A stretch of 64,000 nucleotides of DNA, taken from contig JAAZMZ010000063.1 of NCBI GenBank assembly GCA_012798535.1, forward strand, positions 1 through 64,000. The letters run 5' to 3'. The stretch's first letter is position 1; each line of letters begins with the position of its first letter. Below the pieces are notes generated by a model, which worked only from the letters and a program-made list of their open reading frames with translations, was not told the origin of the DNA and searched no databases. The translations under genes and the position numbers were made by a program. Below, in pieces: positions 42,730 to 47,724 of this stretch. The DNA comes from Leptolinea sp. (lineage in GTDB: Bacteria > Chloroflexota > Anaerolineae > Anaerolineales > Anaerolineaceae).

Positions 42730-43080
42730 ATTTTAATAACCAGAATGATTCCTGGCCTTTCAGGGAATGATCTGAGAATCCCAAAATTTTGCTTTTCGTA
42801 TAAGGTATCAAAATTTATGTAGACCATTACAAAAGTCAGTACAGGGCAAGAAAACGCCAATTATTAATATTACCAATGTTGTGCGAATAATTCCATCCCA
42901 TAGAAAACGATCCTTCAATCTGTGAGCGCGAAGGGGCTTGTTGAGCCCAGCGAAATGTCACGCAGTGGAAAACCCTTAACCAATGGAAAATCCCACTTAT
43001 TCAAGCGGGATTTTTTGCTGTGAGCGCGAAGGGTCACAAACCCTTGACCAGTATGCCGATCCAATCGGTGCTGAAAAAAG
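42730..43080. repeat. Degenerate tRNA-Lys 3'-end copies (att scars)
   Basis: No gene is supported here. Copy 1 is split: TCTGTGAGCGCGAAGGGGCT (42919-42938) and AACCCTTAACCAATGG (42971-42986) flank ~32 extra bases. Copy 2 at 43018-43050 begins GCTGTGAGCGCGAAGGGTC and has an altered T-loop. Both run in the same orientation as the intact tRNA-Lys at 47554-47625. Confidence 0.7.
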
Positions 43081-43121
43081 CTGTGAGCGCGAAGGGGCTC
43101 GAACCCTTAACCAATGGCTTA
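43078..43121 (-). repeat. Exact tRNA-Lys 3'-half repeat (attachment site)
   Basis: 44 bases identical to 47548-47591: the T arm, acceptor 3' strand and a few bases past the tRNA end, starting AAGCTGTGAGCGCGAAGGGG. It marks the left boundary of the segment that carries the small XRE gene. Confidence 0.85.
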
Positions 43122-43189
43122 GTATGCTATATGCTGGTTATAATAAAAGTATGAAGGAATTTCTTGTGAGCCAATGCGGGAGGGCAAAA

Positions 43190-43804: not shown

Positions 43805-43852
43805 TTCTGCGTTGTCCTTTCTCTGCACCTTACCAACCGAATAGTACAGAAG

Positions 43853-43902
43853 TGAGCGCGGAGAGGCTCGAACTCTCAACCAATGGCTTAAAAGGCCACT
43901 GA
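43853..43902 (-). repeat. Distal attachment site: variant tRNA-Lys 3' half
   Basis: It matches the tRNA-Lys from the anticodon stem (GGCTTAAAAGGCCACTG on the plus strand) to the acceptor 3' strand. The T-stem differs at paired positions, GAGAG/CTCTC in place of AAGGG/CCCTT, so pairing is kept. It lies 10 bp from the integrase stop and is the likely distal end of the element whose other end is the tRNA at 47554. Confidence 0.85.
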
Positions 43903-43911
43903 TTCACAGAC

Positions 43912-44811
43912 CTATTTTATCCAAGAACTCTGATCGTGGATCCTCAGCAATTCCTGGTCATCGAATGTCCCGTAGATGTCCGCCGTTACCTGGCTCGAAC
44001 TATGACCGGCGATCTGTGAAACCGCCGACATCGGCGCGTGGTTGGCCAACATTCCCCGGATGGATCCGTGGCGCCAGTTGTGCGGGTTCCAGCCATGGTT
44101 CACGCCGGCCCGCTTCGCGGTTCTCTTCAGCACCTGGTAGATCCCGCCGGCCGTCAATCCATAGCCAGTTGTCAGGCTGATCCAGATCTTCCGCGTTTTC
44201 CGATCGCCGCGTTCTACCAGCCAGGCAGCCAATGCCTGGGCGGTGTGTGCCGTGATGAATACCATCCGCTCTTTCTGATTTCCACCCCGCCCCTTTTCCC
44301 GGACGATGATCATACGCCCGGGCAAGTCCACATCGTCAACCATCATGCCGGCGATCCCCGCCAGCCGGCAGGCGGTATCGGCGAAGATCAGAAATAACGC
44401 GTAGTCCCTCTTGCAGTTCGCCGCGTTGATGATCGCATCCCTGGCATCCGACCGGATCCCGCGGCGGATCCGCACAGGCTCCGGTGGTTTCTCCAGGCGT
44501 CTCGCCGGCGAGATTTCCAGCAATCCCTCTTCAACGCACCAGGCGAAAAACCGCCGGCAGGCGCGCACATGCTGATGGACCGTCCAGGGTGAAAGGCGCC
44601 CTGGTTGTTCACGTTTCTGCCCGGGATATTTCACCTCTCTCTCGCTCAACCACCGGCGCCAGGCGCGCAGCTGGTCAAGGGTCACATCGCGAATCGGGAT
44701 ATCCCCCACAAATAGCACCAGGTTCTTTAGCCGGCGCTGATAGAAAATAACTGTTGCCGGGCTCTTTACCCCGGCCATCGATGAATAAAACTTCTCAAGC
44801 TCAATTTGCAT
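43912..44811 (-). CDS. int: Tyrosine site-specific integrase
   Basis: 299 residues. An N-terminal SAM-like core-binding domain (~1-105) precedes the catalytic domain with the complete set R149 (DTACRLAGI), K173 (REKG), H244-x-x-R247 (HNWR), H270 (AGHSS) and nucleophile Tyr280 (ADIYG). GAGGGG precedes the ATG. The stop lies 10 bp from the attachment repeat, the usual place for an int gene. It should recombine the element into the tRNA-Lys gene. It is divergent from the winged-helix gene over a 90-bp shared control region. Confidence 0.92.
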   Translation of the reverse strand: MQIELEKFYSSMAGVKSPATVIFYQRRLKNLVLFVGDIPIRDVTLDQLRAWRRWLSEREVKYPGQKREQPGRLSPWTVHQHVRACRRFFAWCVEEGLLEISPARRLEKPPEPVRIRRGIRSDARDAIINAANCKRDYALFLIFADTACRLAGIAGMMVDDVDLPGRMIIVREKGRGGNQKERMVFITAHTAQALAAWLVERGDRKTRKIWISLTTGYGLTAGGIYQVLKRTAKRAGVNHGWNPHNWRHGSIRGMLANHAPMSAVSQIAGHSSSQVTADIYGTFDDQELLRIHDQSSWIK

Positions 44812-44852
44812 AAAATCCCCTCGCTGCGTAGAATGTTCAATGCCGCTGCATC

Positions 44853-44876
44853 TACTCGCAATAGGTGCATCGAGTA
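44853..44876. promoter_or_regulatory. Inverted repeat between int and the winged-helix gene
   Basis: TACTCG (44853-44858) and CGAGTA (44871-44876) are 12 bp apart in the divergent control region, next to a near-repeat of TGCATC. It is a plausible operator for a switch between the two genes. Confidence 0.4.
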
Positions 44877-44901
44877 TACCGATTTCGAGGGGTAAAACAA
44901 T

Positions 44902-45504
44902 ATGTCTCTAACATTGTCCGAATTGCGCTCGCTTCGCGGAGCGCCCCTGTCCGTTTTGCTGGCTCTCCGGGCCAGCGAGTCATCAAGATCAGTGACCTGG
45001 CTGTGCACCATCACCGGATATACCGCCAAGACCATCGAGGCTGCTCTTGCTATGCTCGTCTCGCTGGGCTATGTCAACCGCTACGATCGCTACGCCTGGG
45101 AGGCGGCCAACGTGATCAGTACTGATCAGCAAATTGAAAGGATTGGGAAAATTTCCCGATCCGAGACGGAAAATTTCCCGATCCCCTCTAGTAGTAGTAG
45201 TAGATCTATTAATCAGGTTAAAGAGTTAACTACTACTACAAGTGACCGGGAAAAATTCCCGGTCAACCAGGTCAACTATGCCGCCCTGCAGTCGCATGGT
45301 GTGCGCGAACCGGCGCTCTCCCGCCTGTCCGCTCTCCCCCACGTGAATCCGGTTATGATCCACGACCATTTCAATAAGGCTTGTTCCACCGGTCAGGCAA
45401 TACACCGCATTGAAAACGATTGGCCTATTCCACCTTCAGTCGATACCCAGGATTACAGCCGGTATATCAAAGGGCCGTATGCAGAGTTCATCAACCACGA
45501 ATGA
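44902..45504 (+). CDS. Winged-helix DNA-binding protein, possible replication initiator
   Basis: 200 residues. Residues ~5-70 form a winged helix-turn-helix (LRSLRGAPLSVLLALRAS...GYTAKTIEAALAMLVSLGYVNRY). A low-complexity linker (residues ~80-120) contains SSSSS and TTTT. A conserved-looking C-terminal part (NYAALQSHGVREPALSRLSALPHVNP...AIHRIENDWPIPP) follows. The linker DNA carries three palindromes and a TAG/CTA hairpin. An N-terminal wHTH followed by in-gene repeats recalls the lambda O initiator, whose origin lies in its own gene; that parallel is inference. GAGGGG precedes the ATG. Confidence 0.75.
   Translation: MSLTLSELRSLRGAPLSVLLALRASESSRSVTWLCTITGYTAKTIEAALAMLVSLGYVNRYDRYAWEAANVISTDQQIERIGKISRSETENFPIPSSSSSRSINQVKELTTTTSDREKFPVNQVNYAALQSHGVREPALSRLSALPHVNPVMIHDHFNKACSTGQAIHRIENDWPIPPSVDTQDYSRYIKGPYAEFINHE
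45140..45264. repeat. Palindrome cluster and TAG/CTA hairpin inside the winged-helix gene
   Basis: Palindrome 1: arms GGATTGGGAAA/TTTCCCGATCC (45140-45162). Palindrome 2: CGGAAAATTTCCCGATCC (45167-45184). Hairpin: GTAGTAGTAG (45194-45203) with CTACTACTAC (45230-45239). Palindrome 3: arms GACCGGGAA/TTCCCGGTC around AAA (45244-45264). All share a GGGAA(A)nTTCCC core. Confidence 0.8.
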
Positions 45505-45599
45505 CCCCCTACGTGCAAAAAACAACTGAAGGTTAAAAGCAAATATTTTTGTTTTTATAATTCGCAACGGCCTGCAGATTTCCCAACTGTGGGCCGTTG

Positions 45600-45845
45600 T
45601 TATTGGATCAAATCATACCGGCGAAGTTCAATCACCAGATGCTCCTGATCTGCAGCTCCTAACCAGGTCATCAATTCAGCGATCGCGATTCCCACAGCCT
45701 TTTCGCTCATCCCCATTCTGCCGGCAATTTCTGTAATCGTGAGCCCATCGGCCAGCCCTTGCCCAATGGCCCGCGCGATCTGATCGTGATCAGTCAGTTC
45801 TTCAAGGCTCAGGTATTCGAATAACCAGGCCAGATCTGCCGGCAA
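45600..45845 (-). CDS. Small helix-turn-helix protein, paralogue B
   Basis: 81 residues. The C-terminal half has a LuxR/sigma-4-like HTH (LADGLTITEIAGRMGMSEKAVGIAIAELMTWLG) followed by HLVIELRRYDLIQ. It aligns well with the next gene upstream (ANGLTIREIATKLDYSQRKVTGLISELKCW...IRKGLIK), so the two are tandem duplicates. Spaced 8 nt from it. Probably a DNA-binding regulator of the element; target unknown. Confidence 0.68.
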   Translation of the reverse strand: MPADLAWLFEYLSLEELTDHDQIARAIGQGLADGLTITEIAGRMGMSEKAVGIAIAELMTWLGAADQEHLVIELRRYDLIQ

Positions 45846-45853
45846 TATTGTTT

Positions 45854-46060
45854 TTATTTGATCAGTCCCTTACGGATCAAATAGGCGACGATCTCTGCGT
45901 GTGTCTTTCCGCCGGTCCAGCATTTTAATTCACTGATCAGCCCGGTAACTTTTCTCTGGCTGTAATCAAGCTTTGTGGCTATCTCTCGAATAGTCAGGCC
46001 ATTCGCCAGTTCTTCCCCAATCTCCAGATATTCTGCGATCTGCCCGATCACACTTTTCAA
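45854..46060 (-). CDS. Small helix-turn-helix protein, paralogue A
   Basis: 68 residues, almost entirely a LuxR-type HTH (LTIREIATKLDYSQRKVTGLISEL) plus a short C-terminal helix ending RKGLIK. The ATG overlaps the stop of the upstream gene by 4 nt. Paralogous to the 81-residue protein downstream, which has an N-terminal extension. Confidence 0.7.
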   Translation of the reverse strand: MKSVIGQIAEYLEIGEELANGLTIREIATKLDYSQRKVTGLISELKCWTGGKTHAEIVAYLIRKGLIK

Positions 46061-46323
46061 ATCAGCCCTCGTAGATCCAGCACGAAGTGCACATCGGCAG
46101 GCTGCGCGTTATAGTCCATCATTCCGACGGCCACCAGGATATCCAGGAAAAGGCAATCCAGGTTCACCGTGATCTCACCGTTCACGTCGCCCGTGAGCTG
46201 CAATTCCTGGTACATCCTCGAGAACCGCTCTCGCAAAATTGACGTATATGTCCGCGTCCTTTGCGTCATCGGCAGCCCGGTGGTCGGTGGTCTGGTCTGG
46301 TAAATTGGTTGAGTTTCCGCCAT
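46057..46323 (-). CDS. Hypothetical protein, first gene of the element's small operon
   Basis: 88 residues from ATG 46323, chosen for its strong ribosome site GGAGGTGAAC; an ATG at 46392 is possible but has none. Basic, Thr-rich N-terminus, then a segment of alternating hydrophobic residues (GEITVNLDCLFLDILVAVGMMDY...VHFVLDLRGLI). No family recognised. It heads a three-gene minus-strand operon with the two HTH paralogues. Confidence 0.6.
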   Translation of the reverse strand: MAETQPIYQTRPPTTGLPMTQRTRTYTSILRERFSRMYQELQLTGDVNGEITVNLDCLFLDILVAVGMMDYNAQPADVHFVLDLRGLI

Positions 46324-46399
46324 TTGTTCACCTCCGCAGTTGAAAATGATTTTCATCAATTGTACAATTGTTCTACTGTTCTGCTTGGGCATGGCTTCT

Positions 46400-47290
46400 C
46401 CTCCCTTTCCGCCTGGTGTTTTTCCTCCGGGCGGATTGTGGTTTTCCAGTCCCTCCCTTCCGCCGCCTTCGCTCTGCGCCCGCGGCAGTCTCCCGCTCCG
46501 GTCGCTTCGCGGTGATCTGCTGATCCTACCGGCAGGTTAATCCGCTTCGCTCCCTCGCTCCCGCCTGACTCGCCGGGCTTGTGCTTCGGCCGCGTCCGGG
46601 TCCTGTCGCTCGGGCACACCCCGCCCGCTGAGTGCGGGCCGGGTGTGATCGCCCTCACTTTGCCCAACCAGAGAGATCGATCTCTCGCGACGGTTCGCTG
46701 TGCGCAGGCCACCCCCACCCCCCGCCGCGTGGCATCCCCCCTGCCCCCGCCCTGCCGTTTCGCTCCGGCGCCAGAAAAGCGCTGGCGCACTTCGCTTCAC
46801 AGGCAGGCAGGGCACGCAAGGTAAGTTGAACCCGCTCTTGGGGGGTGGGGGTTGACTCCCGCCACCTCTCACGCCGCCTTTGCAGGTCGGCGTTCGCACG
46901 CCGGCCGGTAAAACGCCGTCCGGCTATCGGTGGCTCCCTGCGCTCCGCTTTGGTTGGTCAAGTGTCAACGCTCCGCGTTCGGCGGCCTTGTTTCATGCTC
47001 CCCCTGGTCGGCGGGCGCGCGCTTCGCCTGTGGTTGCTGATGCTCCGCGCGCGCCCTGCCTGGCTCGGTCGGTCGGTCGCTGCGCCCTGCCGGGTCTTGC
47101 TCCCTCCCTCCCTCGCTCCAGGGGTTCGCCCAAATAATCGCATTCTACAAAGCCCTGAAAAGCCCCTCAATCAGCCCTGCAGGTAATTTATGTCCTGCAG
47201 GTCAGGTTTTTTTGAATATCACCCGCTCTGCGTGTCTCTCAGGGGCAGGTTTTTACCAGTTCTCCAAATGCGATTCCCTCAGGCAGCCTT
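46400..47290. other. GC-rich region of the element with no credible gene
   Basis: About 900 bp of very GC-rich, pyrimidine-skewed plus strand with recurring words such as GCTTCGC, GCTCCGC and CTCCCTC. Open frames exist on both strands but read as low-complexity Arg/Pro/Gly protein, as GC-rich noncoding DNA does. It includes a perfect 16-bp palindrome GAGAGATCGATCTCTC (46671-46686) and a GCCCGC/GCGGGC hairpin (46623-46639). It may be structured RNA or a replication region, or simply decayed DNA. Confidence 0.5.
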
Positions 47291-47299
47291 ATGCCGTCA

Positions 47300-47386
47300 C
47301 CCCCCGCCCCACAAAACCAGCATAGCGCACTCCGGCAAGGTGGGGCGTTTGCCGGGTGCGCTTTTTATGCTGTGTGGGTCGGGGGG
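47300..47386. repeat. Long imperfect hairpin (87 nt, about 33 bp)
   Basis: Nested arms, outside in: CCCCCCG/CGGGGGG (47300-47306/47380-47386), CCCACA/TGTGGG (47308-47313/47373-47378), CAGCATA/TATGCTG (47318-47324/47366-47372), GCGCAC/GTGCGC (47325-47330/47356-47361), CCGGCAA/TTGCCGG (47332-47338/47349-47355). The inner part followed by TTTTT resembles a plus-strand terminator. Confidence 0.75.
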
Positions 47387-47411
47387 TTTTGTGGCTGTGG
47401 GTCGCCTGTGA

Positions 47412-47455
47412 AATCGGTATTATCCGCACCCAATGGCCGTTGTTGGCCACCGATT
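47412..47455. repeat. Hairpin in the tRNA-proximal end of the element
   Basis: Outer arms AATCGGT (47412-47418) and ACCGATT (47449-47455) enclose an inner GGCC/GGCC stem (47435-47438/47445-47448). Confidence 0.6.
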
Positions 47456-47471
47456 GATAACTTACTGCAGT

Positions 47472-47508
47472 AAAAAAAAAACCGGCTTTCTCTCGCAAAG
47501 AAAGCCGG
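47472..47508 (-). terminator. Terminator downstream of tRNA-Lys
   Basis: 10-bp arms CCGGCTTTCT (47482-47491) and AGAAAGCCGG (47499-47508); on the minus strand the stem is followed by about ten T. It lies 46 nt past the tRNA 3' end, within the element. A further 8-bp hairpin TGATCCGG/CCGGATCA (47521-47548) stands between it and the tRNA. Confidence 0.85.
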
Positions 47509-47553
47509 CTGCATTGTCGTTGATCCGGCTGTCTCTTGGACCGGATCAAGCTG

Positions 47554-47625
47554 TGAGCGCGAAGGGGCTCGAACCCTTAACCAATGGCTTAAAAGGCCAC
47601 TGCTCTACCATTGAGCTACGCGCCC
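47554..47625 (-). tRNA. tRNA-Lys (anticodon UUU), integration target
   Basis: 72-nt cloverleaf: acceptor GGGCGCG/CGCGCTC (one G-U), D arm GCTC/GAGC, anticodon stem GTGGC/GCCAT with loop CTTTTAA (anticodon TTT), T arm AAGGG/CCCTT. No encoded CCA. Its 3' half is repeated at 43853-43902, 43078-43121 and, degenerate, further left, which identifies it as the attachment gene of the island. Confidence 0.95.
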
Positions 47626-47640
47626 AACCAACAGGGCACT

Positions 47641-47669
47641 ATTCTATCACGCCCTTTTCCCGCCGTCAA
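47641..47669 (-). promoter_or_regulatory. Sigma-70-type promoter of tRNA-Lys
   Basis: Minus strand: -35 TTGACG (47664-47669), 17-nt spacer, -10 TAGAAT (47641-47646), 15 nt before the tRNA. Confidence 0.78.
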
Positions 47670-47724
47670 CAAAACCGGCGCTTTTTCCGATGATATAATT
47701 CCTCCCAATTAACGGGAGAATGTT

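Follow-up and report, generated by a model that had tools for sequence, protein, structure and literature searches.

The putative replication initiator gene examined here (44,902-45,504, forward strand) lies in the window, the whole 64,000-nucleotide stretch of Leptolinea sp. DNA that was analysed, between two tRNA-Lys sequences. On one side, at 43,852-43,901, is an attachment-site copy representing the 3' half of tRNA-Lys, and at the opposite end is the intact tRNA-Lys(ttt) gene (47,553-47,625, reverse strand), the attachment site itself; the two are identical over a 24-nt core, CAGTGGCCTTTTAAGCCATTGGTT. This duplication places the initiator gene within a 3.7-kb integrative element (43.85-47.6 kb) composed of integrase, initiator and small ORFs, and the criteria for such an element, an integrase together with an att duplication at a tRNA, are met. 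The integrase, a tyrosine recombinase (43,912-44,811, reverse strand; Pfam Phage_integrase 6e-20, PHROG integrase 1e-41), adjoins the initiator gene and is divergent from it. On the other side of the initiator, three small ORFs (45,600-46,392, reverse strand), two of them with HTH-like matches, are regarded as accessory. The remaining GC-rich 1.1 kb of the element (46,400-47,550) contains no convincing gene and has no match in Rfam. Downstream of the element, at 42,915-43,132, three further fragments of the tRNA-Lys 3' end suggest repeated integrations at the same tRNA.

The putative assignment of the 200-aa initiator rests on weak PHROG matches, an AlphaFold2 model and its homologues. The protein comprises a winged helix (residues ~1-70), a disordered linker (82-119) and a helical C-terminal domain (~121-175). 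In the AlphaFold2 model (12 sequences, mean pLDDT 77), the residues predicted with low confidence, 82-119, coincide with the block of DNA that carries the iterons and arms described below. Named initiator families match the protein only weakly: PHROG matches have E values of 0.001-0.07, all named ones being replication initiation proteins or DnaD-like loaders, and Pfam RepA_N (PF06970) gives no match at E ≤ 1. No tblastn match to the initiator protein (P0001) was found in INPHARED phages or PLSDB plasmids. A structure search returned only generic winged-helix matches (MarR/ArsR/Z-alpha) and gave the C-terminal domain no fold name.

Within the linker-coding DNA lie three iterons, given here on the forward strand. 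Iteron 1 (45,140-45,162) is a palindrome, GGATTGGGAAAATTTCCCGATCC, with 10 of its 11 arm positions paired, and iteron 3 (45,243-45,265) is a palindrome, TGACCGGGAAAAATTCCCGGTCA, with perfect 10-bp arms. Iteron 2 (45,166-45,184) contains a 17-nt copy, GGAAAATTTCCCGATCC, at 45,168-45,184, identical letter for letter and in direct orientation to the right part of iteron 1 (45,146-45,162); its left half-site is weak, and its palindromy is good on one side only. The DNA shared by iterons 1 and 2 is read in different codon phases, yielding GKISRS and ENFPIP, which indicates that the DNA, and not the protein, is what is conserved. When the codons of the whole gene were permuted synonymously, none of 3000 permutations reached the observed palindrome score of 10.7 (mean 0.4, maximum 7.0). 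The motif GGGAAAAWTTCCC has two copies in the 3.5-Mb genome, both within the iteron region of the initiator gene, and with at most one mismatch it is found 5 times in the window versus 0.39 expected; in both searches the instances are confined to the linker. We predict GGGAAAWTTTCCC to be the target of the initiator's winged helix (recognition helix TAKTI), an inference drawn from sequence alone, with no binding data behind it.

The original prediction had claimed three palindromes with a GGGAA/TTCCC core in the linker, which holds for iterons 1 and 3 and on one side only for iteron 2. Its further claims held: a GATCC tail common to two copies (1 and 2), a position between the DNA-binding and C-terminal domains, as borne out by the disordered linker of the AlphaFold2 model, and a symmetry that coding alone would not keep, as borne out by the synonymous permutations. 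It overlooked a perfect 16-bp palindrome, TGATCAGTACTGATCA, located just upstream of iteron 1 at 45,113-45,128, as well as the inverted trinucleotide arms and AT-rich core described next. No counterpart of the 16-bp palindrome was seen in homologues; it may conceivably be an operator or a second protein site.

Between iterons 2 and 3, two stem arms are inverted around an AT-rich core. The left arm, CTAGTAGTAGTAGTAG (45,188-45,203, forward strand), is built of trinucleotide repeats of 5'-TAG-3' consensus, and the right arm, ACTACTACTAC (45,229-45,239, forward strand), is complementary to it, with the repeats being present on both sides in inverted orientation. The 25-nt core between them (45,204-45,228, forward strand) is 76% AT, versus 47% in the gene, and is a candidate unwinding element or loop. 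Iterons and arms combine into a 31-nt inverted repeat of 81% complementarity. Compared with shuffled sequences, single-stranded DNA folding gives z scores of -2.6 for the arms alone and -8.0 for the whole iteron-arm block. The arms are written in codons that are rare in the host, AGT accounting for 6.3% of Ser and ACT for 11.7% of Thr codons in eight neighbouring genes. Rfam gives no match at the arms. A purely protein-level explanation, that of a Ser/Thr-rich linker, was considered and rejected in view of the occurrence of one DNA in two codon phases and of these rare codons.

About 36 further genes were recovered by profile searches at the level of family, order and class. Most of these homologues display the same layout, in the order palindromic iteron(s), arm, AT core, arm and iteron, all within the linker, and integrases adjoin several of them. 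Several also have a C-terminal segment resembling DnaA domain I, with Pfam DnaA_N confirmed in three (E 9e-11, 2e-7 and 3e-12). The sequence of the iterons varies among genes, while within one gene it matches on both sides, as in L047 with GCGAGGGATGAAAATCATCCCTCGC on either side. Over 34 homologous genes, the summed palindrome score is 280 versus 32 expected from synonymous permutations, although the palindromes of L019, L020 and L026 are no better than shuffles. Homologues retain DNA palindromy at the linker despite differing in the residues encoded there and in the iterons themselves.

The residues of the recognition helix covary with the iteron half-site (r = 0.51, p = 2e-4 by permutation, 47 genes), and the correlation persists once similarity in the remainder of the winged helix is taken into account (partial Mantel r = 0.43, p = 2e-4); the converse comparison of scaffold with half-site, given the helix, yields p = 0.06. 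Half-sites of the TCCG type occur in all 21 genes with a [ST]DK helix versus 4 of the 26 others, and the window's own helix, with TAK in place of SDK, is paired with TTCCCG. A weakness of this comparison is that half-sites were chosen visually, in whichever palindromes lie closest to the arms. Such covariation is what direct recognition predicts; that the encoded DNA-binding domain recognises the iterons is accordingly an inference from the covariation and not from binding data.

The arms vary among homologues even in their repeat unit, which may be TAG, reversed CTA, GAT, TTG/GTT, TTC, CTG or the 4-nt TTGA, and their polarity is reversed (CTA...TAG) in L023, L025, L026, L042 and L046. For 21 of 34 genes, no more than 1 in 40 synonymous permutations matches the inverted arms; the other 13 fail this significance test, in which the best pair scored was in some genes the iteron pair and not the arms. 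Pairing each arm with its own partner gives a score of 11.6, versus 5.3 for arms taken from different genes (32 genes, p = 5e-5), and in the 12 genes without clean TAG/CTA arms the corresponding values are 12.3 and 4.9. The arm windows for this comparison were set by hand, a choice of which the permutation test is independent. The arms conserve complementarity, not sequence. Mismatches within the arms of 22 homologues are unevenly distributed, with 21 A.C versus 4 G.T on the forward strand, which looks as if the reverse strand were the folding one.

Some homologues carry additional elements. L021, L022, L028 and L029 share, across genera, a second, near-identical perfect palindrome of 18-24 bp, AATGTTTGCGCGCAAACATT, located between the C-terminal domain and the DnaA_N-like segment and encoding ENVCAQTLS-like residues. 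Unlike the iterons, this palindrome is constant between genes and may hence be a host-factor site. L034 harbors four perfect DnaA boxes, TGTGGATAA, within its linker (ORF position ~374-446), and a mixed DnaA/iteron origin is possible there. In L032 and L033, many iterons (GGGAGAATCTCCC, TCGGAGATTCTCCGA) precede an AT-rich stretch, with L033 additionally displaying a repeated motif of the CAGTGACCAGTG type.

Scans that used no protein information provide a view of the arms beyond this family. The pattern TAGTAGTAGTAG-N22-52-CTACTACTA, describing inverted TAG arms, was found in only 34 stretches among 84,980 genomes. Most of these stretches, as judged by reading, lie in initiator-like ORFs with iterons adjoining the arms, and they come from Oligoflexia/Bdellovibrionales, gamma- and deltaproteobacteria, Synergistaceae and Chloroflexota. 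The commonest PHROG families among the scanned ORFs are replication initiation, O-like and DnaD-like, and NCBIfam identifies four of the ORFs as STY4528-family replication proteins (up to 3e-67). In viral contigs, 26 of 85 hits for inverted TAG, CTA or GTT arms with loops of 22-52 nt fall inside ORFs and have a strong palindrome no more than 90 nt away, versus 15 of 400 random positions, a control not limited to ORFs. No such case was found in viral contigs for direct TAG arms (0 of at least 120) or for inverted arms spaced 70-100 nt apart (0 of 17). The scan for GAT units likewise gave 0 of 25 by the palindrome criterion, with weaker palindromes in L158 and L166. ORFs from the viral-contig scans also match replication families, and flipped polarity is at least as frequent among them. 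On the closed Bdellovibrio plasmid pBdHAGR4, a relative of the Bdellovibrio-type initiators is found beside parA, with iterons, TAGTAGTAG and weak arms in its linker. The GC skew of this plasmid is shallow, with a broad minimum at ~2-5 kb that gives no precise origin position; the linker of the relative lies at 3.1 kb.

The best explanation of these features is that a small integrative element, residing in tRNA-Lys, carries its replication origin within the gene for its initiator. We consider this reading likely on computational grounds, with binding and replication being inferred in the absence of bench data. What the computation shows is conservation at the DNA level, the layout, the covariation of helix and iteron, the complementarity of the arms and its conservation, the mobile-element context and kinship to replication initiators. 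The original prediction of a replication origin or of self-binding sites is supported to this extent, including by the comparison of homologues, in which palindromy is kept, linker residues vary and iterons follow the recognition helix more closely than overall relatedness accounts for.

As for mechanism, we can only infer binding, melting, intrastrand pairing, helicase loading and replication itself. The winged helix would bind, as a dimer, to the palindromic iterons encoded by its own linker (45,140-45,265), and binding on both sides would strain and melt the AT-rich core. The arms might then pair within each strand, as hairpin or cruciform, keeping an AT-rich loop of 25-30 nt open on both strands, and the C-terminal domain, which in many relatives is a DnaA domain I, may help to load the host helicase or primosome at this loop. 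We prefer a mechanism in which the stem of paired arms does the work, to which, taken by itself, we give about even odds, and mirrored DnaA-trios are its main rival. A purely structural role of the arms would not require TAG, which is nevertheless the most frequent unit and identical to the DnaA-trio consensus.

Among described systems, the closest design is the RepA_N initiator of pSK41, closer than lambda O. The N-terminal domain of the pSK41 protein, a winged helix, binds Rep boxes in the middle of the very gene that encodes it, the central linker encoded by the origin can be deleted, and the C-terminal domain contacts the host replication machinery (PMC5703833). Inverted trinucleotide arms, which the window gene has, are not mentioned in the relevant sections of that work (PMC5703833). 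The hosts also differ, being Firmicutes for pSK41 and Chloroflexota for the window; the window protein falls outside RepA_N, and while pSK41 has a DnaD-like C-terminal domain, relatives of the window protein carry DnaA domain I.

The likeness to lambda O drawn by the original prediction also held, as ori-lambda lies within the O gene and its inverted-repeat iterons bind O dimers (PMC5043065). As in the window, the iterons of lambda (J02459) lie between the DNA-binding and C-terminal domains and adjoin an AT-rich stretch. However, the four lambda iterons all lie on one side of that stretch, whereas the window iterons flank the core on both sides, and the same arm test finds no inverted arms in the O gene (best 8.0 versus 7.8 for permutations). 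O shows no clear sequence kinship to the window protein, though for some relatives with arms there are matches to O-like PHROGs (E 1e-5). The Rep gene of lactococcal phage TP901-1 (AF304433) resembles the window in having a repeated motif of the TTTTCCAGATGTGG type in its linker DNA; by the same arm test it has no inverted arms (8.5 versus 8.4). In the herpes simplex oriS/OBP system, a hairpin in the unwound origin belongs to the described mechanism (PMC12543377). By analogy, its inverted initiator sites around an AT-rich spacer may be likened to the window, but oriS belongs to a eukaryotic virus, its initiator is a helicase, and its hairpin is built from the binding sites themselves.

The rival that survives best keeps the origin reading and regards the arms as a mirrored pair of DnaA-trio elements. 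Single-stranded 5'-TAG-3' repeats would be bound from both sides by host DnaA or by the initiator, which would unwind the core in both directions without any hairpin. The DnaA-trio consensus is 3'-GAT-5' (PMC6669920; PMC8287927), which the commonest arm unit matches, and in the DnaA-trio/BUS of oriC, as in the window, TAG repeats adjoin initiator boxes and an AT-rich unwinding region. Unrelated initiators converge on TAG, though the scan in question specified TAG. Perfect DnaA boxes, TTATCCACA, are enriched near arms (9 versus 0.9 expected, 50 loci), and the ORFs of the family hold 5 DnaA boxes versus 0.9 expected, concentrated in a few genes. Such boxes adjoin the arms in a few relatives (L034, L037, L063, L092, L096, L142 and L151), with the box of L092 abutting a TAG arm, and DnaA domain I is present in several relatives. 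Against mirrored trios, polarity flips among homologues, the flipped form being at least as common in blind scans, and GTT, GAT, TTC and 4-nt TTGA units occur with complementarity kept. We have demoted the strict DnaA-trio reading because of this flipped polarity and these other units. Unlike the DnaA-trio/BUS, moreover, the window has complementary arm pairs around the core, with polarity and unit changing among relatives, and the protein whose iterons adjoin its arms is of the winged-helix type and lacks an AAA+ domain. Neither does the window's element contain a DnaA box: there is no TTATNCACA in 44,000-47,700 and no one-mismatch TTATCCACA in the initiator gene. Mirrored trios remain possible, and the match of TAG to the trio consensus, along with the enrichment of DnaA boxes near arms in a few loci, makes a role of DnaA possible in some of these genes, while the polarity flips and other units oppose it as a common rule.

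The remaining rivals are unlikely. The iterons might be only autoregulatory operators or sites of handcuffing or copy control, with the origin located elsewhere, for example in the 1.1 kb at 46,400-47,550, which is without a clear gene; the protein's own domain would bind the sites in either case. However, operators are expected at a promoter and not in mid-gene, while the motif instances occur in the linker only, and this reading offers no role for the AT core and inverted arms, which recur across replication initiator families. It is similarly doubtful that the arms act in RNA, as a hairpin in the initiator mRNA or an antisense RNA governing expression or copy number. The inverted repeat would fold as RNA too, and the mismatch bias, amounting to G.T/G.U on the reverse strand, would suit an antisense transcript. 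An mRNA hairpin is disfavoured because the arm mismatches are mostly A.C on the coding strand, although this bias may stem from codon constraints; Rfam is without a match, and the AT core and the iterons flanking the arms would be left unexplained. Finally, the arms could be mutational by-products, complementary without function, which arise where an AT-rich site replicates and undergoes both microsatellite slippage and fold-back (quasipalindrome) correction, as their simple and fast-changing repeat units might suggest. However, unrelated families retain the position between iterons, the 20-40-nt loop and the inverted orientation, the viral-contig scans revealed neither direct nor widely spaced arms in such genes, and the arms are written in host-rare codons.

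An initiator gene carrying its own origin is of a known kind; no description of the arm module, or of its recurrence in different phyla, was found in the literature searched, which left subscription journals mostly outside its coverage. A bolder reading, towards which we lean by a small margin, is that inverted microsatellite arms around an AT core, beside iterons in an initiator gene, form an unrecognised origin module. Winged-helix initiators that are unrelated to one another, in phages, plasmids and integrative elements of different phyla, would have acquired this module on repeated occasions. It would act by intrastrand pairing or as mirrored DnaA-trios, and sequence by itself would suffice to locate origins along with their cognate initiators.

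Few models are known in which an initiator gene is self-contained, its origin lying within it. In the present case, one compact layout, recognisable from the DNA, is displayed by a whole Chloroflexota family along with convergent cases in Proteobacteria, Bdellovibrionota and Synergistota, and it offers a way to map the replication origins of uncultured mobile elements. The pairs of recognition helix and iteron constitute a natural data set for the winged-helix recognition code, and the layout poses a testable question, namely whether an origin-borne stem-loop or a mirrored DnaA-trio opens the duplex. Genetic tools for Anaerolineaceae are few, and the element could supply replicons for this family.
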